A stretch of DNA of 64,000 nt. Source: Rhodobacteraceae bacterium REDSEA-S34_B6 (GTDB lineage Bacteria > Pseudomonadota > Alphaproteobacteria > Rhodobacterales > Rhodobacteraceae). The notes beneath the pieces are model-generated. The model saw only the letters and a program-made list of their open reading frames with translations. It ran no database searches and was not told the DNA's origin. Of this stretch, positions 22,525 to 45,778 are shown piece after piece. The translations under genes and the position numbers were made by a program. How positions within the stretch are numbered: the stretch's first letter is position 1; the number at the start of each line of letters is the position of its first letter. The stretch lies in contig LUQC01000108.1 of NCBI GenBank assembly GCA_001627925.1, positions 1 to 64,000 on the forward strand. Reading direction: 5' to 3'.

Positions 22525-22977
22525 TCATCTACTTTCCAAATTTTCTAATAATGCATTCAAACGTTCTGCAATGCCACTATCTTCAAAACTCTCTGATACG
22601 CAGTCGTCAGTTTTTAGAAAAGGCAACTTTTCAGATGTCCATATCTCTACTTTAGGTGATAAATTTTTGGCTGTATCAAAAATTCCTAGAGGAATACCAA
22701 CCATTCCTTCCATCACTTCAGGGGCTGGGTGGGTTTTGCAACGAACATGACATTGAGTGCAGAAATGCACTGTATTAATAAAGCCGCTTCCACCTTCAAA
22801 TTCGTAAGTTGTTGTTGCACCTTTTTCTTCAATTTCTTCCACTGAGTAAAGACATCCGATTTGGTAGCTGCCGGATAATTTTCGGCATTTTGTACAATTA
22901 CACTGAATGACAAGCATTGGGTCTAGTTCAGTTGCAAAGCTATATTGCCCGCAGAGGCAGCCACCAGTATGTTTCAT
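22525..22977 (-). CDS. GFA-family protein (first of six)
   Basis: The 150-aa protein starts at MKHTGGCLCG (ATG 22977); an upstream in-frame ATG at 23043 adds 22 residues unlike the family. Zinc ligands of the GFA fold are present: CLC at the N-terminus, CNCTKC and FCTQC. The family is named for glutathione-dependent formaldehyde activation, although most members have no proven reaction. A long C-terminal tail (WTSEKLPFLKTDD, ERLNALLENLE) is shared with the member at 35033. Confidence 0.85.
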   Translation of the reverse strand: MKHTGGCLCGQYSFATELDPMLVIQCNCTKCRKLSGSYQIGCLYSVEEIEEKGATTTYEFEGGSGFINTVHFCTQCHVRCKTHPAPEVMEGMVGIPLGIFDTAKNLSPKVEIWTSEKLPFLKTDDCVSESFEDSGIAERLNALLENLESR

Positions 22978-23139
22978 AATCAACCCTTTTAATTTATCCG
23001 AACAGCAACAATTTGATATTATCGAAATTGCAGAATTTTTCAAAAAACATTTAGTTAAATATATTTCTATCTTTTAATTAAATTATAAATTATTTGATAA
23101 AGGCAATATAATAGTTAAAATTGGTAAAAGGCGGTTGGT

Positions 23140-23328
23140 ATGGACAATCATCAGCATCCCTCCAATAAAAATATTCAGAGATGCCCACGTTGTTCAGCTC
23201 CTCTGAACACAATTGTAGTTCATGGACATGAAGCTTGTGCACTTTGTAAATCAAATATATTTGAGTGTTGTACTGGCGATGTTGTCGGAACGGATGCAAA
23301 TCTTGATACAGGTTACAAGCGTGCTTAA
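23140..23328 (+). CDS. Small zinc-ribbon protein
   Basis: The 62-aa soluble protein has CPRCSAPLNTIVVHGHEACALC (two CxxC knuckles) followed by a further CC pair in IFECCTGD. It is probably a free-standing zinc ribbon; function unknown. It starts 59 nt before the 3' edge of an otherwise non-coding stretch and precedes a second GFA gene on the same strand. Confidence 0.6.
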   Translation: MDNHQHPSNKNIQRCPRCSAPLNTIVVHGHEACALCKSNIFECCTGDVVGTDANLDTGYKRA

Positions 23329-23387
23329 TGCTTTATTTTCTTTCGGCCTTATACAACTTGGAACAGCACTAGTATGGAAGCTGCAAT

Positions 23388-23810
23388 ATGGGAAAGCTAA
23401 TAAAAGGCGGGTGCCTTTGTAAAAAAATACGATATGAAGCAGCCGTAGAGCCTAAATGGATCTCAATTTGTCATTGCCGTATGTGCCAAAAAGCGTATGG
23501 TAACACCTCTGCAATTTTCGTAGCTTTTGAGCCAGGGCAATTGGAATTTACAAGCGGGTTTCCAAAATACTTCAAATCCTCAGACATCGCAAAAAGAGGT
23601 TTTTGTTCTGAATGTGGAAGCCCTATTGTTTTTAGTTACCAATCATTAGATGCAGTTTTTCTCGGAACTCTTGATGATCCGGAAAATTGGCAACCAAATG
23701 GTGTCCATTTAGGCATTGAAAGTCAGATTCCGTGGGACATTATACACGATGACTTGCCGCAGTATCGAACAGAAGATGATCCTGAGTTTATTGATGCTAG
23801 TTCAGTATAA
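23388..23810 (+). CDS. GFA-family protein (second)
   Basis: The 140-aa protein has GGCLCKKIRY, CHCRMCQKAYG and FCSECGSPI, giving all zinc-binding cysteines of the GFA fold. The C-terminus LPQYRTEDDPEF resembles the member at 40261. It may act on glutathione or formaldehyde adducts, but no substrate can be inferred. Opposite in strand to the GFA gene 400 bp away, so the two are separately transcribed. Confidence 0.87.
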   Translation: MGKLIKGGCLCKKIRYEAAVEPKWISICHCRMCQKAYGNTSAIFVAFEPGQLEFTSGFPKYFKSSDIAKRGFCSECGSPIVFSYQSLDAVFLGTLDDPENWQPNGVHLGIESQIPWDIIHDDLPQYRTEDDPEFIDASSV

Positions 23811-23836
23811 CAATTTGCGCTATGCTAGTTAGATTT

Positions 23837-24100
23837 CTAACCTGGCATTTCTTCCATGCCGTAAACTGTGTATTCGCATCCGTTATCTTTATCCCACTGT
23901 AACTCCTCCGGGCTGCTCATGAATGCTCCCATTGCTTCCATATCAGTCACGTTCATACATGCCATAAATTCTTTTTCGTTTACTTCAGCAAACCTCCAAT
24001 CGGTAACAAATTCTTCGGCGCCCCTTTTCATATCTTCTTTAATTTTTTCGTGAAGAACACGTGCTCCAGTGGCTACGGTTCCGCGAACAAATACATTCAT
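23837..24100 (-). CDS. Hypothetical small ABM/DUF3764-like protein
   Basis: The 87-aa soluble protein begins MNVFVRGTVATGARVLHEKIKEDM. The strand-helix-strand pattern with a C-terminal HMEAMGAF-like helix (TDMEAMGAFMSSPEEL) resembles the small ferredoxin-like barrels elsewhere in this window (28535, 32183). A ribosome site GGAG lies upstream (TTAAGGAG). Function unknown. Confidence 0.5.
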   Translation of the reverse strand: MNVFVRGTVATGARVLHEKIKEDMKRGAEEFVTDWRFAEVNEKEFMACMNVTDMEAMGAFMSSPEELQWDKDNGCEYTVYGMEEMPG

Positions 24101-24173
24101 GATTTTTTCTCCTTAAATTAATTCTTTAAGCTTTAATAATCGAGTTTTTAGTTCAAATTTTTTGAGAGAGTAA

Positions 24174-24530
24174 TCAGTTGTCTGCAATTCCCCCAAGTTT
24201 ACGTTCAGAGCAGTCTGCGATAAGCTTCATTTTCTTTTTTGCAGAGACTGCATTCCCTTCGAAAATTACATGTTTTACTGATGGTGATAGTTGTAATTGC
24301 AAAGACGAATTTACCTTTGTGTTCAATTTAGCTACCCCATTTTTAAAGGATGCACTTTTCCCTGTTTTAAGGTCACGAACAATGAAGTAGCGAGATTCTA
24401 GCTCGCATTTATTGATTAAAGTAACTTCGGCCTTTATTTCCTTGCCAGAACTGAATAACCAAGAAAAAAGACCGTCTGACTTTGCCTGAGAGGCTAAGGT
24501 CAAAAACACTATAGTTGCTACAGTTCGCAA
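24174..24530 (-). CDS. Secreted hypothetical protein
   Basis: A 118-aa protein with a signal peptide (TVATIVFLTLASQAKSDG, cleavage near residue 19) and an acidic/basic mature part with two cysteines (NKCELES, ADCSERK) that could form a disulfide. It starts at TTG 24530, one base after the stop of the upstream gene at 24532, so translation is probably coupled. Periplasmic, function unknown. Confidence 0.5.
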   Translation of the reverse strand: MRTVATIVFLTLASQAKSDGLFSWLFSSGKEIKAEVTLINKCELESRYFIVRDLKTGKSASFKNGVAKLNTKVNSSLQLQLSPSVKHVIFEGNAVSAKKKMKLIADCSERKLGGIADN

Positions 24531-24531
24531 T

Positions 24532-24825
24532 TTAAACTTCAGACATTATGGATAAAACTGGTCCCATTGTTTCTTCGACCATTTTATGCCCTGTTTCATT
24601 AATTGACTGCTCACGCTGCTTTTGACGCATTTCTAATTCCGATTTAGCGTCTGCCTCAGATGAAAATATAATTACTGATTGATGCGTATTTTCATCGATC
24701 TGAAACCAGATTATATCTTCAGCCTTTGTTTGAGATTTAAACTCACGATGCCAACCTTGCATGGTATCTGCGCTGGGCACACCGTCAGGCCACTCCCATT
24801 TAGTATGAATTGCATATTTTCCCAT
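24532..24825 (-). CDS. Hypothetical 97-aa barrel-like protein
   Basis: Starts MGKYAIHTKWEWPDGVPSADTMQGW, continues with DIIWFQIDENTHQSVIIFSSEADAKSELEMRQKQR and ends in a helix. The pattern fits a small dimeric alpha/beta barrel in which the helix DAKSEL follows the third strand. GGAGG ribosome site upstream. No known family is certain. Confidence 0.5.
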   Translation of the reverse strand: MGKYAIHTKWEWPDGVPSADTMQGWHREFKSQTKAEDIIWFQIDENTHQSVIIFSSEADAKSELEMRQKQREQSINETGHKMVEETMGPVLSIMSEV

Positions 24826-25140
24826 TTCAAACCTCCCTAACAGTCTATTTAGAGGAAAACAAAAATGGACGTTTATGACAACAATTAAAAACTTTCAGAC
24901 CACTTTAAAGCCAAAATTTTATGTTTTTGCTAAAAAAATGGAACGAATGGAATGTCGCATCCTGATAATGGCAATATCAATGTTAGTGTAAGTAATCGCA
25001 TTAGGGCCTCTATTTTAATTGCCAAAATATAATAACTTAAAAATTTAAAAATTTGGAATAATTTTTTAACCGTAAAAATTCAATCCAAATATTCCTATCT
25101 GAAAATTACATAGCCTCTGTTATCATTAAAGGATTTTCAA

Positions 25141-25234
25141 AGGGTGGATCAGTTAATGGGGTTAAACTGATCCATAGTGGGGTGATAAGCAAGGGTGGAT
25201 CAGTCAAACTGGGAGGTTAAAAGCTGATCCATAG
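25141..25234. ncRNA. Tandem hairpin repeats, possible anti-Shine-Dalgarno small RNA
   Basis: Two related units (25141-25177 and 25192-25234) each open with AGGGTGGATCAG, contain GGTTAAA and close with CTGATCCATAG, so each folds by a 7-bp stem GGATCAG / CTGATCC. Read on the minus strand the loops carry AACCTCCCAG and AACCCCATT, C-rich like the CCUCC loops of alphaproteobacterial CcsR-type small RNAs. No gene lies within 300 bp. Strand and transcription are unknown. Confidence 0.4.
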
Positions 25235-25404
25235 AACCCTTGCGTTAGTGGAAATTAGGCTTTTATCTAAGTACTTCAACGCATAAATTGTCGCAGTTTC
25301 TGTGCACATTCTTTTTTCCTTTAGTTTTTGGTGTAAACAAAGTGAGTAATGTGTCGTTGCTATTAATGTAACACATATTCATTTTAAGCTCCCTAATTTA
25401 ATTA

Positions 25405-25430
25405 CCCCTCTCTCTTGAGGGGTTTTTTTT
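25405..25430 (+). terminator. Strong orphan rho-independent terminator
   Basis: Stem CCCCTC / GAGGGG, 6-nt loop and eight T. The nearest plus-strand gene end is at 23810, so it most likely ends an untranslated RNA starting somewhere in 25,240-25,380. The rest of 24826-25646 shows no coding frame and is very AT-rich up to 25,140. Confidence 0.7.
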
Positions 25431-25646
25431 GCTGGAATCATGGGTCTCTTTTTGTGTAAATATAACTGGTTTGGAATGCGTAATTTAACATGAAGATAAT
25501 TTGGCGGTAAAATTATGTTTGAGCACTTTCAATAGCCGAACTGTTATGGCATGGGGTGATTATTCAGTGTAATAAATTATTTTAGTACCACGAAATAATT
25601 TAATTATTAGGTATAAAGCCATTAGTATCATAGAGAGGAATTAATA

Positions 25647-26030
25647 ATGAAAAGTTTTCCAGAGTTGATTAAGGAAGCAAATGATCAAATAAATACTGTT
25701 TCAGTGGAAGAGCTTCAGTCTGTAATTGATGATCCCAATCTTATACTTGTAGATGTTCAATCAAAAGATGCGGTGGAGGAAAACGGTATGATAAAGAATG
25801 CAATACATGCCAACCGTGGTTTCCTAGAATTTTATTTCGATCAAAGAGCAGATAATCCATTTAAGAAAATAGATGTGAAATCCGATAGTAAAATAGTGAT
25901 TTATTGTGGAGCGGGCGGGCAAGGTGCTCTCGCGACAAAAACGCTAATAGATATGGGCTTTAATAACGTCAGTAATTTAGAAGGCGGGTCTGCGGCGTGG
26001 CTTGAGGCAGGAAATATCCTCTACTCATAA
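25647..26030 (+). CDS. Rhodanese-like domain protein
   Basis: The 127-aa single-domain protein has the persulfide-forming loop IYCGAGGQGALA (Cys near residue 91) and LEGGSAAWLEAGN at the end, both standard for rhodaneses. A GAGGA ribosome site is upstream. It would carry sulfane sulfur to an acceptor in the cytosol. There is no sulfur-metabolism gene beside it. Confidence 0.88.
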   Translation: MKSFPELIKEANDQINTVSVEELQSVIDDPNLILVDVQSKDAVEENGMIKNAIHANRGFLEFYFDQRADNPFKKIDVKSDSKIVIYCGAGGQGALATKTLIDMGFNNVSNLEGGSAAWLEAGNILYS

Positions 26031-26069
26031 TTGGATTATGATTTAATTCATCTTCCAATAATTTCGGTT

Positions 26070-26534
26070 CTAGCAATCTCGATAACTAGTGTTGGCATCA
26101 GGAAGAACAGTTTTGCATAATTTAGCATTATTTAGCTGCTCCTCAGATATCGCAGCATGAAGAAGATACGCTCCAACTAGATTCACATTAATGAAAATTG
26201 CTTGGTTAAAGTTTGCCAACTCTAGTTCTGCACCCTCGAAATCAGTTTCCACTAGTTTGGTGGCTGAGAGGTTTGCGCCATTCATATAGGTGTTGCTTAA
26301 ATCACTATTTGAGAGATTTGCATTGCTTAGATCAACATTAACCAGATAACTATCGCTGAGATTCGCACCGCTTAAGTCGACTCTCTGAAGATCATGCAAA
26401 CCCAGGTTCAATCTTGATAAATTACATTCAATACAGGACCGGTTTTCCATTAAAGATTTTAGCGTGTTGCTTTCGTTAGCATAGCTATGGCCAGCTGAAA
26501 GGCAAAAGATTATTACGGGCAAGAGTTTGATCAT
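26070..26534 (-). CDS. Secreted pentapeptide-repeat protein
   Basis: The 154-aa protein has a signal peptide (LLPVIIFCLSAGHSYA) followed by about twelve A(D/N)LxN-type pentapeptides (LSGANLSDSYLVNVDLSNANL) that form a right-handed beta-helix. Cysteines CIEC near the start and single Cys at the end may be disulfide-linked. Periplasmic or secreted; such proteins have no single function. Confidence 0.8.
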   Translation of the reverse strand: MIKLLPVIIFCLSAGHSYANESNTLKSLMENRSCIECNLSRLNLGLHDLQRVDLSGANLSDSYLVNVDLSNANLSNSDLSNTYMNGANLSATKLVETDFEGAELELANFNQAIFINVNLVGAYLLHAAISEEQLNNAKLCKTVLPDANTSYRDC

Positions 26535-26666
26535 GAAAATACAATAGCAAAGTAGTTGGCTGCAATAAATGTGTTAGTAAAGTTTTTAAGAGATATCAGT
26601 CAAATTATCATCTGTTTAACAAGATAAATTATCATACTGACTTTCTAATTAATGAGAGGAAAAATA

Positions 26667-26763
26667 ATGTGGACCCTATTTATCGTTTTTTAAGTTCGGG
26701 CTGGAACGAGTCTGTACAATACAAAGAACGAAATAGCTTTAAAATCCATCTAATTAATAGAGT
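26667..26763 (+). pseudogene. Frameshifted remnant of the MWTLF small secreted protein
   Basis: After a good AGAGGA ribosome site the frame reads MWTLFIVF and stops at TAA, with six T in the run. One more T, as in the gene at 33017 (MWTLFLVFLSAAG), would let it continue LSSGWNESVQYKERNS to a stop at 26763. It looks like a decayed paralogue broken at a homopolymer; only the first ten codons are alike. Confidence 0.45.
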
Positions 26764-27381
26764 TTATCCGTAAACTAATTTAATACTGGATCGAGCGCTT
26801 GCTTGCTTTGCAACCCGTTTCACATTCGGAAAATTACTCAGTTTTGGATGCCCTCGTGAGGGCTCAAGCCAAGTGGTAAGCATATACAAATAGATATCTA
26901 CGGCGCTAAAGGTTTTACCCAGAATCCATTTTTTGTTGTCAATTTGATTGTCGATTATCTGAAGTGTCTCCATTAGCCTCCTGTGACCACGTCTTTGTGA
27001 ACCTGGTTCATCTTTTATTGTATCTGCAAATCGATATGGGTGATAATCCTGCTGAAATGCAGTTTGAACAGAACTAGAGAAATAAACGAGTGTTTGAAGA
27101 AAAAGGCCACGCAAGGGCGAATTAGGTGCTGGTGCTAGATTTGCATTTTTATGACGATCGCAAAGAAATATTGTAATGGCCGCGCACTCGTACATTGCGC
27201 CGTCTTCCCAGATAAGTACCGGAACCCACCCATTTGGATTAATTTTTAATTGCTCTGTCGGTCTTGGCTGGCCTCGGCGAGTTGTCGTCGGTATGAGTTC
27301 GTAAGGGGCTCCTATCTCCTCTAGAAGTACTCTAACACCCATTGATGCAGTACGATCTGCGTAGTATAATTGATAGGTCAT
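26764..27381 (-). CDS. Glutathione S-transferase family protein
   Basis: The 205-aa protein has a thioredoxin-like N-domain (YQLYYADRTASMGVRVLLEEIGAPYEL, NPNGWVPVLIWEDGAMYECAAI with the cis-Pro and glutathione-contact residues) and a helical C-domain (LGKTFSAVDIYLYMLTTW). It probably conjugates or reduces with glutathione. It fits with the many GFA proteins nearby, which may also use glutathione. Confidence 0.87.
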   Translation of the reverse strand: MTYQLYYADRTASMGVRVLLEEIGAPYELIPTTTRRGQPRPTEQLKINPNGWVPVLIWEDGAMYECAAITIFLCDRHKNANLAPAPNSPLRGLFLQTLVYFSSSVQTAFQQDYHPYRFADTIKDEPGSQRRGHRRLMETLQIIDNQIDNKKWILGKTFSAVDIYLYMLTTWLEPSRGHPKLSNFPNVKRVAKQASARSSIKLVYG

Positions 27382-27435
27382 TGAGTTCCCTTTTTTATAT
27401 AAAGGCTACAGAGCATTGAGGATAGGTTACCGTAT

Positions 27436-27705
27436 TTATTTCTTATCACAAAATACATTGTAAATTGTTGTACAATTTGCAGCCACATCCAGTGCCCACT
27501 TAATCTTTGCAGTATGTTCAATGAAATCCGGTGTTCCCTCTTGATTGGTTTCTAACGCTTTCCAATTTTCATCAGCGACTGTAAGCAATTAAAGTACACC
27601 GCCTTTTATTTCGTTACAGTCTTTTTGGGATAGAATCTTTTGGTTGTCTGCTACGGTAAAAGTTGCCCAAAAAACAAATGCTAGCAAAGGCATCAATTTT
27701 TTCAT
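27436..27705 (-). pseudogene. Small secreted protein split by an in-frame TAA
   Basis: ATG 27705 opens a signal peptide (LMPLLAFVFWATFTVADN) and runs 38 codons to TAA at 27589-27591. The same frame then continues open for 50 more codons (starting LLTVADENWKALETNQEG and ending NCTTIYNVFCDKK) to TAA at 27436. The reading frame is unbroken apart from this one codon, so it is a nonsense mutation, a sequencing error or, less likely, readthrough. The cysteines C30, C79 and C86 would suit a small disulfide-bonded periplasmic protein. Confidence 0.6.
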
Positions 27706-27744
27706 CTCTGATTACTTTCGTAGGAAGTGCGTGAGACTTACAAA

Positions 27745-28176
27745 TTAGGGTTTCATTTCGTCACTGTCTGGACCAGCTACATGCCATTTGCCCTCAAAAA
27801 TTGTTTTAATCCATGCTACTTTTGACTGTCCAAAAATGTGCTTCGCTGGGGTTAGTGTGTGATGCTGTTTCAAAAAACCCGTTCGAACGTTGAACACTGA
27901 TTTATCGGGAGCTCTTGCATAAAGTTGACATCCACAAGTGCCGCAAAAGCCTTGAATTCGCTCGTTTCCACTATCGGCAATTTTGGAATACTCGGTAACC
28001 TGCCCTTCTACTATTATATCGTCCTTTTTTATAATAACCACTGGCCTAAAGGGAGCACCACTAAATTGCTGACAATCGGTACAATGACAGGCAATAACCA
28101 TGCCTGGCTCAACTTTAGCGCTAATTTTAATTTTTCCGCAGTGGCAGTTTCCATTTACGTTTATAGGGTCTGACAT
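27745..28176 (-). CDS. GFA-family protein (third)
   Basis: The 143-aa protein has GNCHCGKIKISA, CHCTDCQQFSG and FCGTCGCQL, i.e. all zinc sites of the GFA fold. VFNVRTGFLKQHHTLTPAKHIF near the C-terminus is the common ending of the shorter GFA members. Located 31 nt upstream on the same strand is a DUF4242-like gene. No substrate assigned. Confidence 0.87.
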   Translation of the reverse strand: MSDPINVNGNCHCGKIKISAKVEPGMVIACHCTDCQQFSGAPFRPVVIIKKDDIIVEGQVTEYSKIADSGNERIQGFCGTCGCQLYARAPDKSVFNVRTGFLKQHHTLTPAKHIFGQSKVAWIKTIFEGKWHVAGPDSDEMKP

Positions 28177-28207
28177 GTTAATCGCATTTCTTTCGAGTTC
28201 GGATGAA

Positions 28208-28510
28208 TTAGCTTACGAACGAAGTGTTATGTTTGATTACAGTACTTACTTCTGAGATCTCACTAGCAGGCACGCCAGCGCGCTCGGCATGTTCTCGAAC
28301 AAGTTCCGCACTATCAGCATTGTAGACGCAGTAAATTGCATCACCAATTACGTAACTCTGTTCTTGCATAATATTTTTGCCCTCTGATCGCATAGCCTCG
28401 AGTACTTCTTCTGATCCTTTGCCTGCGTTATTTAAGTCGTTTTTTGCGAGGCTTCCCGCGCCCGCCATTTCTCTCTTAATCAAAAATTTTTTCACCTTAA
28501 TTTCTCCCAT
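28208..28510 (-). CDS. DUF4242-family protein
   Basis: The 100-aa protein matches the DUF4242/SCO4226-like pattern: KFLIKREMAGAGSLAKNDL at the start, then EQSYVIGDAIYCVYNADSAELVREHAERAGVPASEISEV. The family is a dimeric ferredoxin-like barrel, and one member binds nickel. The physiological role is unknown. It lies 31 nt from a GFA gene and 24 nt from another barrel-like gene on the same strand. Confidence 0.8.
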   Translation of the reverse strand: MGEIKVKKFLIKREMAGAGSLAKNDLNNAGKGSEEVLEAMRSEGKNIMQEQSYVIGDAIYCVYNADSAELVREHAERAGVPASEISEVSTVIKHNTSFVS

Positions 28511-28534
28511 TCGTTTCTGATTAACTAGAATTAA

Positions 28535-28810
28535 TTAATCTGATGCAATTGACATTGACATTGTTTCTGGATCTGTATCACCCCCAGCTGAAGCGATGAG
28601 TTCTGCTTCATTTTCCATATGTTCCTGTATTACGTCCATATTGGGAGTATACATTACAACATGAATGGTATCATTATCATTTACATCCTGACCCCTGTAA
28701 ATTGTTTTTATTCCATATTTACTATTTCTTAAACCTTCAGCACCATCGAATGCCGCGAGCCAGTGATCATACCCTTTCGTAATTTTTTGTTTTAGAATGA
28801 GTGTTGGCAT
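28535..28810 (-). CDS. DUF3764-like small protein
   Basis: The 91-aa protein is taken from ATG 28810 (MPTLILKQKITKGYDHW) because an AGGAG-like site precedes it; the upstream ATG at 28849 is less likely. FDGAEGLRNSKYGIKTIYRGQDVND and MYTPNMDVIQEHME give a strand-helix-strand pattern typical of small dimeric barrels that respond to or bind unknown ligands. Function unknown. Confidence 0.55.
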   Translation of the reverse strand: MPTLILKQKITKGYDHWLAAFDGAEGLRNSKYGIKTIYRGQDVNDNDTIHVVMYTPNMDVIQEHMENEAELIASAGGDTDPETMSMSIASD

Positions 28811-29063
28811 TTTATTACTCCTATAGCTTTGCATTAAAAAAGCATACATTCAGAATGGACTTTTTTATAGTACAGCTTTTGTAGTATTTTATATTTTTGG
28901 GCTCGCATTATTATTCCTAAATTAGTAATTAATATTGTGAAAAAGATATTTGTTGAAAATCTGATCCAGGATAGTCAGATCGAGAAAAAAATACTGGCAG
29001 GAAAATACAAACTATAACAAGAAACCAGTAAAAATCTTAGCAGTAAAAGATCGGATTTTTTAA

Positions 29064-29741
29064 ATGTTAAAACTTGTTTATTTTAAAATGAGAGCGTTGG
29101 CTGAAGCTCCACAATTACTGTTGAATTACTGCGAAATAAATTATGAGTATATAATGTCTTGGGATCACTTTGATGATGAGTGGTCTAACGTCAAGCCAAA
29201 GCTTGCTTTCAAACAACTGCCGATGATGGAAGTTGAGGATGGGACTCAAATTTGCCAGAGTATCGCTATACTTCAATATATTGAAAATTTAGGTGGGTTA
29301 AAAATTAGTGATCCGGTAAAGGCTGCTGAAGCTACGGCCGTGTTGCAAAGCGCTCAAGAATTATTCGCACCACTAAATCCAACAGTAAATTTTGCGGTTG
29401 GCCAAGATTTTATTAACAAAAGAGATAGCATGAGGATTAACTTAGAAAGCCGGTTTTCTGATTTGGCTCGCTATCTTGACAAACATGAGGGCAGGTACTT
29501 TATCGATGATACTCCAAGGGCTGCGGAATTTGCCTGCTTTCATCACCTTGATTTATCCCGGGAGCTTGACCCAGAAACCCTTGAAAAGTTTCCTCGTTTA
29601 ATAAAATTTGTGAAAGACATTGAGGGTATTGATGCAGTTTCAAATTATTTGAAAAAAAGACCTAAATTAGTGGGTGTAGGAACAGAACCTAGGTTAGTTA
29701 TTAACGGAACTGAGCATCCTACAGGCGTCAATAAAACCTGA
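29064..29741 (+). CDS. Glutathione S-transferase (sigma-like)
   Basis: The 225-aa protein has KLVYFKMRALAEAPQLLLNYCEINYE, the catalytic-Tyr type N-terminus seen in sigma-class and related GSTs, LAFKQLPMMEVEDGTQICQSIAILQYIENLGG with the QSxAI glutathione contact, and a helical C-domain. It lies in 28850-29741 after a 250-bp gap with no other feature. Probably a cytosolic glutathione transferase or isomerase; the substrate is unknown. Confidence 0.85.
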   Translation: MLKLVYFKMRALAEAPQLLLNYCEINYEYIMSWDHFDDEWSNVKPKLAFKQLPMMEVEDGTQICQSIAILQYIENLGGLKISDPVKAAEATAVLQSAQELFAPLNPTVNFAVGQDFINKRDSMRINLESRFSDLARYLDKHEGRYFIDDTPRAAEFACFHHLDLSRELDPETLEKFPRLIKFVKDIEGIDAVSNYLKKRPKLVGVGTEPRLVINGTEHPTGVNKT

Positions 29742-29757
29742 TTGATAACTGCGGGTT

Positions 29758-29982
29758 TTAGAACCATCCTAATCCATGCTTCATAACAAATAGGTTAGGT
29801 AAAAGAAGGAAAAAAGTTACGCCTAGCACCTGTGCCCTGCGACCCCACTTTAGAAAGCTTGAATTGTTATTAGCCAAAACCAATGCACCTGCCGCATATC
29901 CGTTAGCCTCAACTTTTCTCCGCCTAGATTCTAATGATTTCATTGCGGCTTCAAACTTTTCATCGTTTCTTTTATATTTCAT
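29758..29982 (-). CDS. Small single-span membrane protein
   Basis: The 74-aa protein (start ATG 29982, MKYKRNDEKFEAAM) has a basic N-terminal helix (KSLESRRRKVEANG) and one membrane span (VLGVTFFLLLPNLFVM) near the end. It is probably inner-membrane with the charged part in the cytosol. Function unknown. It lies downstream of the 43-aa CDGSH-like gene. Confidence 0.45.
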   Translation of the reverse strand: MKYKRNDEKFEAAMKSLESRRRKVEANGYAAGALVLANNNSSFLKWGRRAQVLGVTFFLLLPNLFVMKHGLGWF

Positions 29983-35032: not shown

Positions 35033-35482
35033 ATGAAGTATTCGGGAAATTGCTTATGTGGTGAGGTTAGCTTTAAATTTCCATACGACCCAATGATGCA
35101 ATTTAAATGTCATTGTAATGTTTGTCAGAAAGTCTTTGGGAATACTTTGCATGCCTTGGCTATGCCACAGGACGAATTGGAGATTTCTGGGTCTCTTTCA
35201 AATTATTATATAACTGGCGGAAGTGGGAACAAACTACATTATAACTTTTGCCCAACTTGTGGTACTTTTATATATAACAAACCAGATCTTTTAGATCCTA
35301 TGATTTACGTACCCGCGGGATTACTTGATGGTCAAATAGAGTTCACTCCAACTGTTGAATTATGGACGTCACAAAAACCTAATAATATTCCCCAGGCCAC
35401 TTCAACTAAAGCGGCATTTGAGGATAACGGGACAACAGATCGGCTGATGGATATGCTCGAAAACTTAGACCAGAGGGGATAA
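35033..35482 (+). CDS. GFA-family protein (fourth)
   Basis: The 149-aa protein is taken from ATG 35033; a GTG at 35024 sits inside the ribosome site. GNCLCGEVSF, CHCNVCQKVFG and FCPTCGTFIYN supply the zinc cysteines. The C-terminal WTSQKPNNIPQATSTKAAFEDNG and LMDMLENLD resemble the first GFA protein here (22525), so those two are the closest pair in the set. Confidence 0.87.
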   Translation: MKYSGNCLCGEVSFKFPYDPMMQFKCHCNVCQKVFGNTLHALAMPQDELEISGSLSNYYITGGSGNKLHYNFCPTCGTFIYNKPDLLDPMIYVPAGLLDGQIEFTPTVELWTSQKPNNIPQATSTKAAFEDNGTTDRLMDMLENLDQRG

Positions 35483-36496: not shown

Positions 36497-36799
36497 CTAG
36501 GTATTATCTATTTCATTTTGATGCAGAACTATGCCTGAGAATGCGTTGGTGCGGCTACCGTTTTCATATAGTTCTAAAATAGGGGTAATGCTATCTAGCC
36601 AATCTAAGCCCGAAACCACATCCATGCTTCTATCTTCGATACTGTCGTAGGTATTTAAAGCTGCATACTCACTATCTCCTAAGCTTAGTATCTGCCAAGA
36701 TATAGAGTTGGAATTGTCAAATTTTCTGAGTGCATCTATTAGCTGATCTTCAAATCCGATCTTGGCTTTGAATCTCGTGATAGTTGTGACCAATGTCAT
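36497..36799 (-). CDS. Hypothetical 100-aa ABM-like protein
   Basis: Start taken at ATG 36799 (MTLVTTITRFKAKIGFEDQLIDALRKF). The alternating layout and central WQILSLGDSEYAALNTYDSIEDRSMDV fit a small monooxygenase-like barrel. The 38-aa gene at 36831 lies just upstream on the same strand. Function unknown. Confidence 0.5.
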   Translation of the reverse strand: MTLVTTITRFKAKIGFEDQLIDALRKFDNSNSISWQILSLGDSEYAALNTYDSIEDRSMDVVSGLDWLDSITPILELYENGSRTNAFSGIVLHQNEIDNT

Positions 36800-36830
36800 A
36801 AAGATTTTCCTATTCATTTACAGTAAACGT

Positions 36831-38223: not shown

Positions 38224-39330
38224 TTAACTTAAGCCTTTCCACTCACTGACTTCTGGATAGAATTGTGCGCGCCATTTAATTACTTTTGGGTTCATTACCT
38301 TGCGCCAAATAAATGGTACCAAGCTAAATACAACCATAATCGGGTATCCAAATGGTAACTGGGGTGCGCTGTCAGCATCATGTGCACTCAGAGTTGGATA
38401 TGTTTGTGATGGCCTAGAATGATGATCCGAATGTTTTTGTAAGTTAATAAGTAGTAAGTTGCTGGCTGCATGATTGGCATTCCAGCTATGGTGTGGCTTT
38501 GTGGGTTCATACTTATTATCTGATATTTTTTTTCTGGAGAGACCATAATGCTCTATATAATTTACAACTTCCAAGTGAAGTACGGCGACGAGTGCTTGAA
38601 TGAAAAATAATGCAATACCCCATGCGCCGCCCACTACGAATGACAAGAACACAAAGAAACATGCCAATGCGGCATAAATGTAAAACGGGTTCGAAATATT
38701 AAGGATAGATTTATTTTTGGAAGCGAGCTTTTGCGCTTCCACTGACCAAGCAGAAATTAGACACTGGGGGATGACCCGAAGGAAAAAAGTATAGAAACTT
38801 TCGTTGAAACGGGCAGTGACCGCATCCTTCTTGGTGCCTACATACCTGTGGTGTACAAAGACATGTTCAGTTCTAAAGTGACCATAAAAAGCCATGGCCA
38901 TTAAGATATCTGAGAAAAATCGCTCTAGCTTTGTTTTTTGATGCATTAATTCGTGAGCAAAGGTAATTCCGACGGCCCCAGTAATCATTCCCTGCACAAG
39001 CATTAAACAAATAGCCTCGAAAGTTGTGAGGTGATTAAACCAACAGATAGAGACAAGAGATCCAAACAGTAAGAAGAATTGGATCAAGGGCCAGGCAAAT
39101 AGAATTAGTTTGTAACTACTTGTGTCGTTCGAGACATCTATTTGGTTTTTTTTGTTTTCACCGATAATAAAATCAATGATTGAGATGATTACGTAACCAA
39201 AAACTGGGGCGAGAATTAATATAATTCCGCCGTAAACCCACGCTGATATAAGTAATGGACAAAACAATAACGGAAGGGCAAACGCGATGGGCGGCTCAGG
39301 TTTACTAAAATTTTGACTTTTGTCGGACAC
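38224..39330 (-). CDS. alkB: AlkB-type membrane di-iron hydroxylase
   Basis: The ~368-aa inner-membrane non-haem di-iron oxygenase shows the alkane hydroxylase/XylM histidine boxes: HELMH, EHVFVHHRYVGT, NYIEHYGL and LQKHSDHH. Start taken at GTG 39330 behind GAGAG; the TTG at 39366 is also in frame. It hydroxylates the end carbon of alkanes, fatty acids or aromatic methyl groups. No rubredoxin or rubredoxin reductase is adjacent, so electrons must come from elsewhere. Confidence 0.9.
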   Translation of the reverse strand: MSDKSQNFSKPEPPIAFALPLLFCPLLISAWVYGGIILILAPVFGYVIISIIDFIIGENKKNQIDVSNDTSSYKLILFAWPLIQFFLLFGSLVSICWFNHLTTFEAICLMLVQGMITGAVGITFAHELMHQKTKLERFFSDILMAMAFYGHFRTEHVFVHHRYVGTKKDAVTARFNESFYTFFLRVIPQCLISAWSVEAQKLASKNKSILNISNPFYIYAALACFFVFLSFVVGGAWGIALFFIQALVAVLHLEVVNYIEHYGLSRKKISDNKYEPTKPHHSWNANHAASNLLLINLQKHSDHHSRPSQTYPTLSAHDADSAPQLPFGYPIMVVFSLVPFIWRKVMNPKVIKWRAQFYPEVSEWKGLS

Positions 39331-39374
39331 CTTTAAAAACTCTCTAGCTTGAAAATCAACAATCAATTACCTTT

Positions 39375-39851
39375 TTAATTTGTAGCACCTTCTGGTTCGT
39401 TTTCCAGCATTTCTCGCAACCAGTTACTCATGGCCACTTGATAGTTTAGCCCTTCTAAGTCTATTGGTTGTTTTGATACCCACCACTGATACGGGTCATC
39501 TTCCATTCGAATTGCAAGTCTGTCATTTTCATTTGCAATCTTCATAAAATCAGGATTATTTTTATTTTCTTTTTTAACGTAATGCCACTTCTGCACGTCA
39601 ATTGCATCAGAATCTAACATCAGCGCCATCTCATTTTTTACTTTTCCTGAAAAATTGTAAGATGGACTTTCAGTAAACCAAACAAAACGTCCACAGTAAT
39701 TATATTGGTCATCAAGCGCTCTTTGGTCAGCTATAGAATAACCCTCCCGAAGCCCTGCCATATATTCAGTTCCCTCGAGCTCAAGTTTCTTGCTCGCCAA
39801 GATCAATTTCATCGCGTCTCGCGAAGTCCAATGATAAAGTGTTGTGCCCAT
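39375..39851 (-). CDS. Hypothetical protein with ART-like N-terminus
   Basis: The 158-aa protein begins TLYHWTSRDAMKLILASKKLELEG and contains GRFVWFTESPSYNFSG, reminiscent of the LYHxT and FWFT strands of ADP-ribosyltransferase-like DUFs (RES/DarT-type). No catalytic Glu can be pinned. It is directly upstream of alkB on the same strand with about 8 nt to the TTG start, but a functional link is unproven. Confidence 0.5.
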   Translation of the reverse strand: MGTTLYHWTSRDAMKLILASKKLELEGTEYMAGLREGYSIADQRALDDQYNYCGRFVWFTESPSYNFSGKVKNEMALMLDSDAIDVQKWHYVKKENKNNPDFMKIANENDRLAIRMEDDPYQWWVSKQPIDLEGLNYQVAMSNWLREMLENEPEGATN

Positions 39852-40053
39852 TTTTAACCTTATTAAGTCAGAATTGACTTTAATATCCCTATTTTAGAAT
39901 GCAATGATAGCCTTCAGGTATTACAAACATTAATTATTAAATACGCGCAAAATCTATACGTAAAATTTTGATATTTATGATCTTAAAGGATACTATCAAA
40001 GCATAGACAGACCGAAATTTGATTTAATTTGCTTTTAATATTACACTCCTTAT

Positions 40054-40143
40054 ATGGGAGATTCTAAAATTACGATAATCCATTTGCTATCTGCTGTGGC
40101 AGTGTTAGCGGTTATAGCAACCCAAAGCTTTGCTTTAATCTAG
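40054..40143 (+). CDS. 29-aa possible membrane microprotein
   Basis: ATG 40054, TAG 40141-40143. GDSKITIIHLLSAVAVLAVIA is one hydrophobic span. There is no strong ribosome site (ACTCCTTAT). It may be a small membrane peptide or chance. The rest of 39852-40260 holds no gene. Confidence 0.2.
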   Translation: MGDSKITIIHLLSAVAVLAVIATQSFALI

Positions 40144-40260
40144 GTCGGTTAAATCAACGCAGTTAGTTGAAATCAGCTCACAAAAGCTCTGTTTACAAAT
40201 CATTAAAAAGTAGGAAGTGTATTTCCGTACTACTTTAAAGGTAAAATAAGGCTAAAGGAC

Positions 40261-40647
40261 ATGAGTGTAAAAGGTTCCTGTGAATGTCAGGGTGTTATGT
40301 TTGAACTTACTGGAGAGCTGCGAGATGTCGTCTTCTGCCACTGCTCTCAGTGCCGCAAAACATCTGGCCACTACTGGGCCGCCACACAGGTCTCAAAAGG
40401 GAATTTAAATTTGATAAAGGCTACGTCACTAAGCTGGTATGACTCATCAGATAAAGCTCGTCGTGGTTTTTGCAGTGTATGTGGCTCTAGCATGTTTTAT
40501 GAGAGAAAAGGTATTGATAAAATCTCTGTTTCAGCAGGTTCGCTGGAAATACCGACATCTCTTGATCGGATGCGCCATATCTACGTTGCAAGTAAAGGTG
40601 ACTATTATGATATTTCAGATGACTTACCACAATTCGAAGAATATTGA
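40261..40647 (+). CDS. GFA-family protein (fifth)
   Basis: The 128-aa compact member has GSCECQGVMFEL, CHCSQCRKTSG, FCSVCGSSMFYE and ends LPQFEEY. A ribosome site AAGGA is present. It has all zinc ligands. Its C-terminal LPQ(F/Y) motif links it with the member at 23388. Confidence 0.87.
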   Translation: MSVKGSCECQGVMFELTGELRDVVFCHCSQCRKTSGHYWAATQVSKGNLNLIKATSLSWYDSSDKARRGFCSVCGSSMFYERKGIDKISVSAGSLEIPTSLDRMRHIYVASKGDYYDISDDLPQFEEY

Positions 40648-40745
40648 CCCAACCATAGAGCTTGATCGACCATACCCCTAAATTTTGTCCCAAAGGCCTC
40701 AAATATTATTGAAATACCTATTTATCATAATGACGCGTGGTCCAC

Positions 40746-41258
40746 TCAATTCTCTGATTTTGCAAATGGAACCATAGCTGACCATACACCATCAGCTTTG
40801 AAGCGATGATAGACGGCGGCGAGGATGTGGATACCTACCAACCAATATGTAGCCGTAACAGAAAACTCGTGTATACTGATCACGGCTTCTATAATTAACC
40901 CTTCTTTTAATCCAATCCAATAAAGTCCGCCTATTCCCAGTCCTGTTAATGCAATGGATCCTAGGCTTATATACATTCCAAGGTGTACAAGTTTGGCTGC
41001 AATTTTTTGGATGTAACTCGTATTTTCGGGCAGTGCGCTTCGCTGTGTTTTTGTCATGTAAAAAAAACGTCCCAAAAGAAGAATTAAAAAGATACCAGCA
41101 AAAACTATTTCAAGTCTAAACAGCGAGGGGTCTGAGAGTTCTGCAATATCATCCACTTGTTTGAAAACTCCATATGCAAACAGAAGTACAAACCCCCAAT
41201 GCATTAGTTTGGCTATTATGCTATATCGAGTTTGATTAATGAGGTTTGTTTCTTCCAA
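40746..41258 (-). CDS. Cytochrome b561-type membrane haem protein
   Basis: The ~170-aa protein has four spans. The haem-ligand His are visible: KLMHWGFVLLFAYGVF (span 1), KLVHLGMYISL (span 3), and HEFSVTATYW/GIHILAAVYHRF (span 4). Start taken at TTG 41258 (GGAG upstream); a frame upstream to 41330 adds a non-family leader. It could pass electrons between quinol and the divergent cytochrome c genes. Confidence 0.87.
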   Translation of the reverse strand: MEETNLINQTRYSIIAKLMHWGFVLLFAYGVFKQVDDIAELSDPSLFRLEIVFAGIFLILLLGRFFYMTKTQRSALPENTSYIQKIAAKLVHLGMYISLGSIALTGLGIGGLYWIGLKEGLIIEAVISIHEFSVTATYWLVGIHILAAVYHRFKADGVWSAMVPFAKSEN

Positions 41259-41412
41259 ATAATTTCTCCAACTATTGAGAGTAGTAAATATAATATTTCC
41301 GAAAATTTCACACACACAAACAGGTATCATAAAAAGAACAATGAATTATAAATGTAAAGAACATTTTGCTTCCTATTGACCTTCCAGTAACTGGAGCCAC
41401 TACCTCAAAGCC

Positions 41413-42276
41413 ATGAAAGTGAAAATAATCATATCAACACTTATAACTAGTGCCTTTGGAATTTTTCTTTACCTGACAGTGACCGCCCCGAAGTCACTTG
41501 CCGTGCTTGATTATTCAGCGGAAACTTCGGATCTATCCAACGGTGAGTATATATTTACGGCTGCGGGTTGTAGTGGATGTCATATTGAAGAGGGCTCAAA
41601 AGACAAATATCTATTAGCTGGTGGGCAGAAATTTGAAACTGCGTTTGGTACATTTAAAGCTCCAAATATTTCCAATAGTGTTGAATTTGGAATCGGGGCA
41701 TGGGAATTTAAAGACTTTTATAACGCATTAAAGCTCGGCCAGAGCCCTGATGGCGAACATTATTTCCCTACATTTCCTTACACAGCATATTCCAAAATGA
41801 CAGATCAAGATATTATGGACTTATGGACGTTCTGGAAGACTCTGCCTAGCTCTGACGCATTTATCAGCGATCATGACTTACCATTTTTATTTTCTAGCAG
41901 GCGAAATATTGGCGTTTGGAAAACTCTTTACATGTCAGATAAATTTGTCAGCTCCGAGGTTGATAGGGGTACATATTTAGTTGAGGCACTTTCTCATTGC
42001 GCAGAGTGTCATAGTCCTAGAAACATACTCGGTGCATTAAAATTCTCTGAGTGGTTAGAAGGAGCCCAAGATCCGAGTGGTAAGGGAAGAATTCCTGGTA
42101 TTAGCACCGAGAAGCTTGCTTGGACAGGAGATGAAATTATAGAATATCTAAGTTCTGGTTTTACTCCTGATTATGACGTGGCCGGGGGTAAAATGGCTTC
42201 GGTAGTTGAAAACACGTCTAAGCTAAGTGCAGCGGATAGAAGCTCAATCGCGCAGTATCTTTTGAGGGTAAAATAA
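41413..42276 (+). CDS. Di-haem cytochrome c
   Basis: The 287-aa periplasmic or membrane-anchored protein has an N-terminal uncleaved-like signal (IIISTLITSAFGIFLYLTV) and two c-haem sites, CSGCH near residue 55 and CAECH near residue 196. Each domain has a downstream Met candidate (KMTDQDI, KMASVVE). It resembles the cytochrome c subunit of membrane dehydrogenases. It overlaps the next cytochrome gene by one base (ATG/TAA), so the two are co-translated. Confidence 0.87.
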   Translation: MKVKIIISTLITSAFGIFLYLTVTAPKSLAVLDYSAETSDLSNGEYIFTAAGCSGCHIEEGSKDKYLLAGGQKFETAFGTFKAPNISNSVEFGIGAWEFKDFYNALKLGQSPDGEHYFPTFPYTAYSKMTDQDIMDLWTFWKTLPSSDAFISDHDLPFLFSSRRNIGVWKTLYMSDKFVSSEVDRGTYLVEALSHCAECHSPRNILGALKFSEWLEGAQDPSGKGRIPGISTEKLAWTGDEIIEYLSSGFTPDYDVAGGKMASVVENTSKLSAADRSSIAQYLLRVK

Positions 42277-42710
42277 TGTGTAAAAACCATCTAATATTAT
42301 ACATTTTTCTTCTTATCATGGTCAATTTGCATACAGCAAATGCTCACCATGAACTCGAAGACCAAAACATCGTGAACGGAGAAGAAAATTATCAAGCACA
42401 TTGTGCCAGCTGTCACGGGGTTGACCTCGAGGGTCAACCTAATTGGAGGACAATGAAAGCTGACGGCAGTCTTCCGGCACCCCCTCATGATGAGACAGGG
42501 CATACATGGCATCATGATACAAAAATGTTATTTGATTACACTAAATATGGCGGTCAAAAAACGCTGGCTGCCGTAGGTATCAACGATTACAAAAGTGGTA
42601 TGCCGGGCTACGAAGACGTGCTTTCAGATTTACAAATATGGGAAATTTTAGCTTTTATTAGATCGACCTGGCCTAAAGAGATACAAGATCTACATGCCAC
42701 AAGACATTAG
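42276..42710 (+). CDS. Mono-haem class I cytochrome c
   Basis: A 144-aa exported protein with a signal peptide (ILYIFLLIMVNLHTANA) and haem site CASCHGVDLEG, followed by KSGMPGYEDVLSDLQIWEILAFI, where the Met is the probable axial ligand. It is a soluble electron carrier, translationally coupled with the di-haem protein and followed by a multicopper oxidase after 25 nt. Confidence 0.87.
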   Translation: MCKNHLILYIFLLIMVNLHTANAHHELEDQNIVNGEENYQAHCASCHGVDLEGQPNWRTMKADGSLPAPPHDETGHTWHHDTKMLFDYTKYGGQKTLAAVGINDYKSGMPGYEDVLSDLQIWEILAFIRSTWPKEIQDLHATRH

Positions 42711-42735
42711 TTGAAAGTTTGTAAAGGTTTTTTCG

Positions 42736-44118
42736 ATGATATCACGACGTGGTGTAATTAAAAATTGTTTGGCAAGTTTAGTAGCAGTGAAAGTTCCTAC
42801 AAGCGCATTTTCTGCAAACAATGTTTCTCGTTACCGCATCATTGCTCAGAAATCTGAGCATCAATTTTATGAGGGAGCTAATCTTTCGGACCTATTCCTT
42901 TACAACGGTAGCAGCCCCGGTCCACTCATTGTTGAAAACAAGGGTAATATACTGGAAGTAGAGTTTTTGAATCTTTTGGATGAGCCCAGTTCGATACATT
43001 GGCATGGTATCAAAAATTTGAATGATATGGATGGTGTGCCGGGTCTAACGCAAGCGCCTGTAGAGCCTGGAGAAACTTTCACTTACAGGTTTCCTCTGAA
43101 TGATGCTGGTACTTTTTGGTACCATTCTCACAGTCAGGCATGGAACCAAGTAGCAAGAGGACTTTGTGGCCCATTGATTGTGCTAGAAGATGAATCATCA
43201 ATGAGCGATAGGGATCTAATCATTGCTGTAGATGATTGGCTTTTAGACGAGAATGAGCAAATTCATACGGCTAGTTTAGGAAGCTTACATGATTGGTCGC
43301 ATGGAGGAAGGTTGGGAAATTTTCTTACGATAAACGGTAAGTCGGCACCCGAAATAAAAATCCCAAAGAGTGGAAAAGTACATTTAAGGTTTTTAAATTT
43401 TGCAAATGCTCGTGTGATGCAGTTTGAACTAAATGATAGGTTACCGATGCGGATTGTTGCTTTAGATGGGGCACCATGTGATCCTTTCATGAGGCAACGT
43501 TTAACTTTGGCTCCTGCACAAAGGGTTGATGTTCAGATCGATGATGTCTCATTTGTAAGAGAATTATTCGAGGTAAGTACAGGAGAGGAATATGGTGCAG
43601 CTACGTTTGTGCCAAATGAGGTAAATCAGAAACCTAATGCATTGCCACGATTTGTATTGCCAACAAATAATATGCTGAAAATGGATAATGCTGAGGTAAT
43701 AAACATTCATATGCAGGGTGGGGCCATGGGTAACCTATCTTCTGCTATTTTTGAGGGTGAGCAAAAGAGTTTGCGAGAGCTGGCAAGATCTGAAAAAAAA
43801 TTATGGGCTTTTAATGGAGAAATCGGTGGGTATGATCTGACGCTTGCAGAAGTGGATTTAGGCAAAACTGTCGTATTAAGGGTTTGGAACGATACACGAT
43901 GGCAACACGGGATGCATCTCCACGGACATCACTTTTGGGTTAAGTCTAAAGAATTCGGGGATGAAGCTAATTTAGTTCTTCGGGACACCTATCTAATGCA
44001 ACCGGGTGAACATGCTGAATTGGTCTTCGAAGCAAACAATCCTGGATCATGGTTATTTCATTGCCATATGCTTGAACATCACGTTTCAGGCATGGGAGGC
44101 ATTATAACCGTTGGATAG
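42736..44118 (+). CDS. Multicopper oxidase (laccase-like)
   Basis: The 460-aa exported enzyme has a Tat-type leader (SRRGVIKNCLASLV). The four copper motifs are all there: SIHWHGI, FWYHSHSQ, HGMHLHGHHFWV and HCHMLEHHVSGM (type-1 ligand Met at the end). No His/Met-rich loop as in CueO is seen. It would oxidise a phenol, metal or cytochrome and reduce O2 to water; with the two upstream cytochromes it may form a small periplasmic respiratory chain. Confidence 0.88.
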   Translation: MISRRGVIKNCLASLVAVKVPTSAFSANNVSRYRIIAQKSEHQFYEGANLSDLFLYNGSSPGPLIVENKGNILEVEFLNLLDEPSSIHWHGIKNLNDMDGVPGLTQAPVEPGETFTYRFPLNDAGTFWYHSHSQAWNQVARGLCGPLIVLEDESSMSDRDLIIAVDDWLLDENEQIHTASLGSLHDWSHGGRLGNFLTINGKSAPEIKIPKSGKVHLRFLNFANARVMQFELNDRLPMRIVALDGAPCDPFMRQRLTLAPAQRVDVQIDDVSFVRELFEVSTGEEYGAATFVPNEVNQKPNALPRFVLPTNNMLKMDNAEVINIHMQGGAMGNLSSAIFEGEQKSLRELARSEKKLWAFNGEIGGYDLTLAEVDLGKTVVLRVWNDTRWQHGMHLHGHHFWVKSKEFGDEANLVLRDTYLMQPGEHAELVFEANNPGSWLFHCHMLEHHVSGMGGIITVG

Positions 44119-44397
44119 AAAATTTAGCTTTTCTGATTTCCAAAAATTATCAGATTTATAAGTATAAAGCGCGCTTCTTAGTATAATAGCATTTTGCAGA
44201 ACAGTCTGTCGATCGTATCAATAGCGCCAAAAATTTATTGCATAATTTTTGCATTATAAACTCCATAATTTAAGGTATAGATAAAATGTTTTTTCTGTTT
44301 TGAATATTTGAAAAAAAGAATACCCGGCATGCAACGCTCGCAATGGTGGGCGTGCAAAATAGAACTGTTTAAAAATTTTTAGTCTTAAATCGCCAAT

Positions 44398-45072
44398 TTA
44401 ATTTGCTAGGAATTTGCTAATAAGGCTGGATGATATCGCAAAATTTACACCTGCATTAGTATCAGTATTTTTTGTAAAAATGCCGCTCATCATACCCAGT
44501 AATTCACCATTAAGATTGACTAAAGCTCCACCAGATGAACCAGGATTTGCCGCTGCATCAGTCTGCAGGAAATCTTCGATATCATTAAAACCAATGTTGC
44601 TCAATCCTGTAGCGGATATCACGCCGCAGGTTATCCCAATATTTAATCCAAAACTATTGCTTATTAGGCAAGCACTGCTGCCAATTTTAGGCTTTTCAGT
44701 TTCAATTGTTATTGGCCGTAATTCTAACTCGGTTTTAAGTAATGCAAGATCGGTAGAAATAGAGTTCTTAATTATCTTAGCTGAAAATAATTCACCTTTA
44801 ATATCTCGAACTTTTACATCAGTAGCTTTTGAAATTACATGCGATGCAGTAAGTATAAGTCCGTCTGACGAAACTATAATTCCCGTACCTTCTGGCGCTG
44901 TCCCAGGGGGTGCGCCAAATCCTGGTTTATCATAGCCGGGCCAAGTTGGTAATACAGATACTACAGTAAGTGAAGCTATTTCCCATGCGTTTATTGGGTC
45001 TGCAAAGATTGGTTTTGATATCAGCAGGACTATGATTTTTACTACAGAAAATATATAAAAAAAGTTCTTCAT
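44398..45072 (-). CDS. Trypsin-like S1C protease without PDZ domain
   Basis: The 224-aa protein has a signal peptide (FYIFSVVKIIVLLISKPIFA) and the HtrA/DegP-type catalytic triad: His in ILTASHVIS, Asp in STDLALLKTE, Ser in AANPGSSGGALVN. The PDZ domain of DegP is missing. Periplasmic serine protease; substrate unknown. No terminator is seen in 44119-44397, which contains no other gene. Confidence 0.85.
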   Translation of the reverse strand: MKNFFYIFSVVKIIVLLISKPIFADPINAWEIASLTVVSVLPTWPGYDKPGFGAPPGTAPEGTGIIVSSDGLILTASHVISKATDVKVRDIKGELFSAKIIKNSISTDLALLKTELELRPITIETEKPKIGSSACLISNSFGLNIGITCGVISATGLSNIGFNDIEDFLQTDAAANPGSSGGALVNLNGELLGMMSGIFTKNTDTNAGVNFAISSSLISKFLAN

Positions 45073-45199
45073 GAAAGTTTAGCCTTGCTAATAACATGCC
45101 TATTCTCTGGTTTTAGGATATAGATCTAACCAAATTTCCCTAAAATCTGTGACATCTAAAATCTACGATCTTAAATAAGGACCTAATTTGATAAAAATA

Positions 45200-45778
45200 T
45201 CAATTTAAAATTTCTATTTTGGACATGCTGTGAATTACTGATTTTAAAGTTTGCCCGTACCTTGGGCGATTTATTTCATTAAATGAGTTCGAAACTCTTT
45301 TGATCTCTCTAAACTCACGGGTTTCTATCTCAGAGAAGCTAAAAATTAGGGGAATATTCTCCAATTTGCTTATCTGACTGGCATCTTGCAAGTCATTTAA
45401 ATAGATTGCAGCCGAAGGTTCTATAGACAGGTCGCAATTTGTAGAACAGTGATATTTAAAAAACATAAACACATTATCCCGATAGCTTTTGTGGTCTACC
45501 CCAATTATTGAGAAGCACTTTTCACAGTATATGCGGGTAGACCGACCGGTTGATCGTAATTTAAATGCGTGCATGAATTCTTTGCCTTTGACGCTAAGAA
45601 TATCTGATTTGACATAAATTAATTCTGGCAAAGAGCTCGGCTCTGCACCGCCTTGTAGTGAGCACCACTCTAATGCGTGTCGGCAATCAGTGCATCCACA
45701 TAACAAGCTTAGGCAAGGTTTGCCGTCATTAATTTCGAAACCACATACTCCGCAGTGGCAGGTGATATTGGCGCTCAT
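45200..45778 (-). CDS. GFA-related protein (sixth), extended
   Basis: The 192-aa protein keeps a GFA-like zinc core: CHCGVC at the N-terminus, CGCTDCRHALEW, and YCEKCFSII. It has a ~65-residue extra C-terminal region (SEIETREFREIKRVSNSFNE) without cysteines. It is a divergent GFA/DUF6151-like member. GGAG site not seen; ATG 45778 follows weak AG-rich sequence. Confidence 0.75.
   Translation of the reverse strand: MSANITCHCGVCGFEINDGKPCLSLLCGCTDCRHALEWCSLQGGAEPSSLPELIYVKSDILSVKGKEFMHAFKLRSTGRSTRIYCEKCFSIIGVDHKSYRDNVFMFFKYHCSTNCDLSIEPSAAIYLNDLQDASQISKLENIPLIFSFSEIETREFREIKRVSNSFNEINRPRYGQTLKSVIHSMSKIEILN

Follow-up and report, generated by a model that had tools for sequence, protein, structure and literature searches.

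Six mutually distant GFA-family genes in an accessory block confined to one clade of small-genome marine Rhodobacteraceae

Why should a small bacterial genome hold six members of one protein family within some 23 kb? Genes of the GFA family are annotated as formaldehyde enzymes, and few of them have been tested. The window analysed here is the stretch of 64,000 nucleotides that opens contig C11 (C11:1-64000) in the draft genome of Rhodobacteraceae bacterium REDSEA-S34_B6 (G000; 2,413,873 bases, 95.5% complete). A first-pass annotation had noted six GFA-type genes on both strands between 22525 and 45778, and this was borne out by a profile search of the genome, which gave seven matches to PF04828, six of them inside 22.5-45.8 kb (Table 1). 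Counting GFA genes elsewhere in the genome, as the annotation had proposed, added just the seventh, a divergent match on contig C30. GFA1 to GFA5 pass the curated cut-off of PF04828 (24.3 bits) at 71-97 bits; GFA6 falls slightly under it and fails. The seven zinc-ligand cysteines (CxC ... CxCxxC ... CxxC) are invariant across a 17-sequence alignment with GFA1 to GFA5. In GFA6 all seven are in register and are invariant among the six orthologs of its own alignment, and a profile-to-profile comparison (hhalign) matched it to the other GFAs over 81 columns (78% probability, E 1.8e-5); its predicted structure (pLDDT 46) was too poor for use. The nearest solved relative of GFA3 by sequence is 8ajq, a CENP-V/GFA domain-containing protein (3e-11). 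For GFA1 an ATG start was favoured over a longer TTG option at 23043. The two GST genes and the AlkB gene said to be interleaved with the GFA genes were also recovered, the former as members of the GST_N/GST_C families and the latter as an AlkB-type protein of the FA_desaturase superfamily, not the DNA-repair AlkB. Because the same six GFA genes are syntenic in a close relative (G006), the cluster is not an assembly artefact.

Table 1. Positions in the window of the GFA-family genes, neighbouring genes and the accessory block
Feature	Position	Strand	Basis
GFA1, GFA-family protein	22525..22977	-	PF04828 73.5 bits
GFA2, GFA-family protein, solitary in window	23388..23810	+	PF04828 77 bits
GFA3, GFA-family protein	27745..28176	-	PF04828 96.6 bits
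GFA4, GFA-family protein, solitary	35033..35482	+	PF04828 94 bits
GFA5, GFA-family protein, solitary	40261..40647	+	PF04828 71.3 bits
GFA6, divergent GFA-like, extra C-terminal part	45200..45778	-	PF04828 22-22.9 bits
Short-chain dehydrogenase (SDR), end of GFA1 run	21074..21775	-	PF13561 116 bits
Carboxymuconolactone decarboxylase (CMD)/AhpD-like	21875..22489	-	PF02627 22.3 bits, just under 23-bit cut-off
Glutathione S-transferase GSTa	26764..27381	-	GST_N/GST_C families
SCO4226-like small protein	28208..28510	-	PF14026 59.9 bits
DUF3764 small protein, head of GFA3 run	28535..28849	-	PF12594 43.6 bits
Glutathione S-transferase GSTb	29064..29741	+	GST_N/GST_C_3
ABM/NIPSNAP-type small protein (p36497)	36497..36817	-	Predicted model pLDDT 69
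AlkB-type alkane monooxygenase-like membrane protein	38224..39366	-	PF00487 111 bits (FA_desaturase superfamily)
Clade-A accessory block, approximate extent	20542..51215		Gene order vs G003, G006, G008, G010, G012, G013 and clade B

When seven genes were placed at random 2,000,000 times, six never fell within 23.25 kb and five did so about once per million placements; the analytic estimate for six of seven is 3.5e-9. Together with a comparison against 60 genomes outside the genus, this upholds the earlier statement that the density is far above chance. Among the 217 GFA places listed for those genomes, the densest 25 kb held three GFA genes, a tandem run in G040, and pairs occurred on seven other contigs, a comparison that drew on the stronger matches listed and may miss weak neighbours. 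About 77 loci with GFA genes were taken from unrelated genomes, most of them with 10 kb on each side; a second GFA gene was present in five and a third in none. Within the same family, 56 of the 61 genomes sampled have GFA-family genes, with 0-14 per genome at E<=1e-10, both counted among the matches listed. What sets this genome apart is only the clustering, its count of GFA genes being ordinary for the family.

The physical closeness of the six genes is a point in favour of a local tandem array that arose from one ancestral GFA gene and then diverged, and the annotation had proposed a tree as the means of telling local duplication from separate gain. The outcome was mostly separate gain. Pairwise identity among the six is just 16-35%, and in a tree of 71 sequences every one of them clusters with the orthologs that the relatives carry in this block, no two being sisters, which gives six separate ortholog groups. 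Forcing one clade on all six groups cost 231 log-likelihood units and was rejected (AU p 5.06e-5). In addition, other members of the genus have their GFA2 orthologs at unrelated loci, as is the case for the relatives of GFA3. Holding GFA1 and GFA4 together as a pair (p 0.2), or GFA2 and GFA5 (p 0.09), was not rejected; these may be old duplicated pairs, and the separate gains may therefore number four to six. The same two pairs had been described as subtypes. The common WTS-K segment of GFA1 and GFA4 proved real, within a wider clade (support 95/96) that includes genes of other genus members; the LPQ(F/Y) pair, GFA2 and GFA5, is 33% identical and was borne out less well, as a weakly supported group in the tree. 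The tree contains long branches, and its deep joins are consequently unsure. Repeated recruitment is also favoured by G003, whose block has at its end one more GFA, from a different lineage. Recent tandem duplication is ruled out by the identities and the tree; tandem amplification is refuted for the whole set and could apply to at most two old pairs, and as an account of the cluster we hold it to be very unlikely.

The block might alternatively be a chromosomal integron or a fossil of one, with GFA and GST genes, both common in cassettes, mixed with many small unknown genes. We took this reading seriously because a survey of integron-associated genes ranks GFA (PF04828) and GST with the cassette functions found most often (PMC7370490), and the gene mix of the block resembles that of the surveyed cassettes. 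However, the attC-like scan, the repeat search and the integrase search were all negative. Across 31 kb, a simple scan of our own, which is neither IntegronFinder nor a curated attC model, picked up a single attC-like candidate, which falls within a cytochrome c gene (chance expectation 0.45); the repeat search found no repeat family between the genes; and the only two tyrosine recombinases of the genome are both XerC/XerD-like, a call made from their sequence and context and not from an IntI model. Gene orientation in the block is, moreover, mixed. An integron origin thus seems extremely improbable to us.

The block that contains the six genes ends beside a conserved sugar ABC operon (UgpC, 51401-52459), and its gene order is kept in G003, G006, G008, G010 and G012 at about 68-99% protein identity. 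Clade A was defined by ArgH identity of 86-97% (G003, G006, G012 and G013), compared with 70-71% for clade B; G008 and G010, for which no ArgH was found, were assigned to clade A by the block itself. The sugar ABC operon is conserved in both clades. In clade A the block lies next to it, whereas five clade-B genomes have core genes after it instead (enoyl-CoA hydratase, HMG-CoA lyase, hisD and murA, named by sequence). Being confined to one clade, with a junction that is conserved in the sister clade, the block is a lineage-specific genomic island, one in which neither an integrase nor a tRNA attachment site was found: the tRNA scan of the window found none, the Rfam scan of the window was empty and no phage integrase was found in the genome. 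Other genes between the GFAs encode a rhodanese, a pentapeptide protein, a nucleoside deoxyribosyltransferase, cytochromes c and a multicopper oxidase. The content is patchy among the relatives. GFA5 and the cytochrome c, multicopper oxidase and protease genes occur in the block of G000 and G006 only, GFA1 of G003 lies on a different contig from the block, and GFA4 of G012 is a pseudogene with a frameshift and an in-frame stop. Some of these absences may reflect gaps in the data, the drafts being fragmented and 53-96% complete.

Two observations concern the surroundings of the block. The amylase-type gene before UgpC (52460-53946) is broken into ORFs of 169 and 318 aa by a frameshift or an assembly error, the relatives having one ORF of 517-522 aa. 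G000 also encodes two urease alpha subunits that are 54% identical, one in the window (13896-18989) and one on another contig (G000:C31:19424-21115); the window copy, accompanied by the Urt transporter and CobS/CobT-like genes, is common to G012 and was not found in other genus members.

All six GFA genes are under purifying selection, with dN/dS between G000 and G006 of 0.04-0.22 (0.10 for GFA1, 0.04 for GFA3 and 0.22 for GFA4). A separate feature of this comparison is the dS of GFA1, GFA2 and GFA3 (22525-28176), which is 0.43-0.60 where most immediate neighbours have 0.16-0.32; it is likewise raised in EamA (0.51) and in a sugar-binding protein (0.84). Allele exchange is a possible cause of the higher values of GFA1 to GFA3.

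The first-pass annotation had suggested that the locus may be a thiol-based island for aldehyde detoxification, perhaps linked to AlkB products or methylated compounds. In its fuller form, this explanation holds that six GFAs and two GSTs were co-selected and jointly capture aldehydes or other electrophiles that AlkB, the multicopper oxidase and further oxidases in the block produce. It agrees with a GFA density far above chance, with the two GSTs and the rhodanese nearby, with purifying selection on all six GFAs, and with the operon in which the clade-B ortholog of GFA2 sits beside ALDH, Fe-ADH and an SBP56-family protein (see below). It does not agree with the place of the formaldehyde pathway in this genome. 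Against the Gfa equivalog model TIGR02820, whose cut-off is 234.55 bits, GFA3 scored 26.6 bits and GFA5 21.9 bits, and four of the six GFAs gave no match; by this model none of the six is the Gfa enzyme proper. AdhC (C18:46809-47912, 606 bits, cut-off 544) and FghA (C18:44200-45015, 378 bits, cut-off 282) are encoded together on contig C18, where no GFA match was found, and a gfa-adhC-fghA cluster is thus lacking there. Within the window the GFA genes are spread over both strands in separate short runs and none forms an operon with AlkB; individual GFAs have been freely lost by relatives, and the neighbours are not conserved outside the genus. The single island and its link to AlkB are accordingly not supported, and we judge the fuller form unlikely. 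The locus is a caution against taking the name "GFA" to mean formaldehyde detoxification, and the founding activity is itself disputed: on re-study, Gfa bound glutathione and did not catalyse the formation of S-hydroxymethylglutathione (PMC4682968).

The immediate neighbours point to more local roles. GFA1 is the first gene of a compact run in which the CMD/AhpD-like gene and then the SDR gene follow; the gap to the CMD/AhpD-like gene is 35 nt, the adjacency is also present in G006, and the two genes are likely co-transcribed. GFA3 is the last gene of a run that begins with the DUF3764 gene, and it is likely co-transcribed with the SCO4226-like gene, from which 31 nt separate it. GFA6 runs with a gene for a small membrane protein. 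The partners thus differ among the three GFA-containing runs, and GFA2, GFA4 and GFA5 stand alone; this variety suggests that GFA proteins are modular add-ons of different small operons. Outside the genus no neighbour family recurred in more than 3 of 54 operon neighbours of GFA genes. The island's own neighbours were not found beside GFA3 homologues in other lineages, in a scan of genome contigs that used the narrower GFA3 group, the broader GFA alignment being too diverse.

For the predicted model of p36497 the best Foldseek matches were putative antibiotic biosynthesis monooxygenases and NIPSNAP proteins. In clade-A relatives one or two small proteins (~95-108 aa) lie beside the GFA2 ortholog (L031:9022-10197, L036:13156-14314, L045:1965-3124 and L039:5231-6039), and paralogs of p36497 flank it in four relatives; the window has none beside GFA2. 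A GFA-ABM pairing was dismissed as a general rule: it was seen in this genus, ABM is absent from the 25 neighbour families listed elsewhere, and small ABM-type proteins are common across the block in any case. The AlkB-type protein contains NYIEHYGL, which we take to be a signature of the alkane monooxygenase AlkB; its gene has orthologs of 84-97% identity in four clade-A relatives and of 47-55% in clade B, elsewhere in the genome.

In clade B the ortholog of GFA2 belongs to a larger operon (L046 in G004:C42, 73-6700; L042 in G007:C66, 4569-8248) with the order Fe-ADH, AhpD-like, ALDH, GFA2 ortholog, HpcH/CitE-like lyase, SBP56-family, ferredoxin-like and CoA-binding-like, and with a LysR-type gene opposite; the ferredoxin-like, CoA-binding-like and LysR-type genes were named from sequence. 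This operon is possibly an aldehyde-producing pathway, and through its ALDH, Fe-ADH and SBP56-family genes the GFA2 lineage may have a link to aldehydes. As the SBP56-family protein reaches 150 bits against the methanethiol-oxidase equivalog cut-off of 650, we make no claim on methanethiol. A relative of GFA3 (L069 in G007:C6, 1069-3155) adjoins TmpB and TmpA, both above their NCBIfam cut-offs; these are phosphonate oxygenases of 2-trimethylaminoethylphosphonate degradation.

It seems probable to us that an accessory block of about 30 kb, specific to one clade, gathered separate GFA lineages, each of which probably serves its own small operon, and that they do not form one pathway. Over time, in one clade of a marine Rhodobacteraceae genus with small genomes, mutually distant GFA genes would have accumulated next to the conserved sugar ABC operon. 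Most would have come independently, either from other parts of the genome or through horizontal transfer; GSTs, small ABM-type proteins, cupins and redox proteins would have been gathered alongside, the clade members keeping different subsets. Searches for a vehicle (tRNA, phage integrase, attC) found none. Each GFA is a conserved zinc protein for which, judging by the family, glutathione binding is to be expected; it most likely deals with a reactive electrophile or a thiol adduct on behalf of its own operon, that of the AhpD-like protein and SDR in the case of GFA1 and that of two small proteins in the case of GFA3. Against this view of separate recruits, strong purifying selection and clustering beyond chance could mean an unseen shared function. 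The block might be a set of six glutathione-dependent zinc proteins that differ in substrate and were selected together, acting jointly against mixed reactive compounds and assembled with no mobile vehicle, which we think quite unlikely. Six distant and conserved GFAs in one small genome offer a compact test set for the function of the family, and the locus illustrates how members of one protein family can come together at a single chromosomal site with neither tandem duplication nor an integron or integrase.

Three known systems bear comparison with this block. With Gfa of Paracoccus denitrificans (1X6M/1XA8) the island GFAs share the PF04828 fold family and both cysteine zinc sites, which in Gfa are C31/C33/C99/C102 and C52/C54/C57 (PMC4682968), but they score far under the TIGR02820 cut-off. 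Environmental integron cassettes (PMC7370490) are alike in that GFA and GST families travel together as accessory genes, whereas no attC series was found in the block and no integron integrase in the genome, and the genes lie on both strands. The clade-specific variable islands of streamlined marine bacteria are similarly lineage-restricted, fixed in place beside conserved genes and patchy, with no mobile element found; compared with these, the block described here stands out by its six members of a single protein family.
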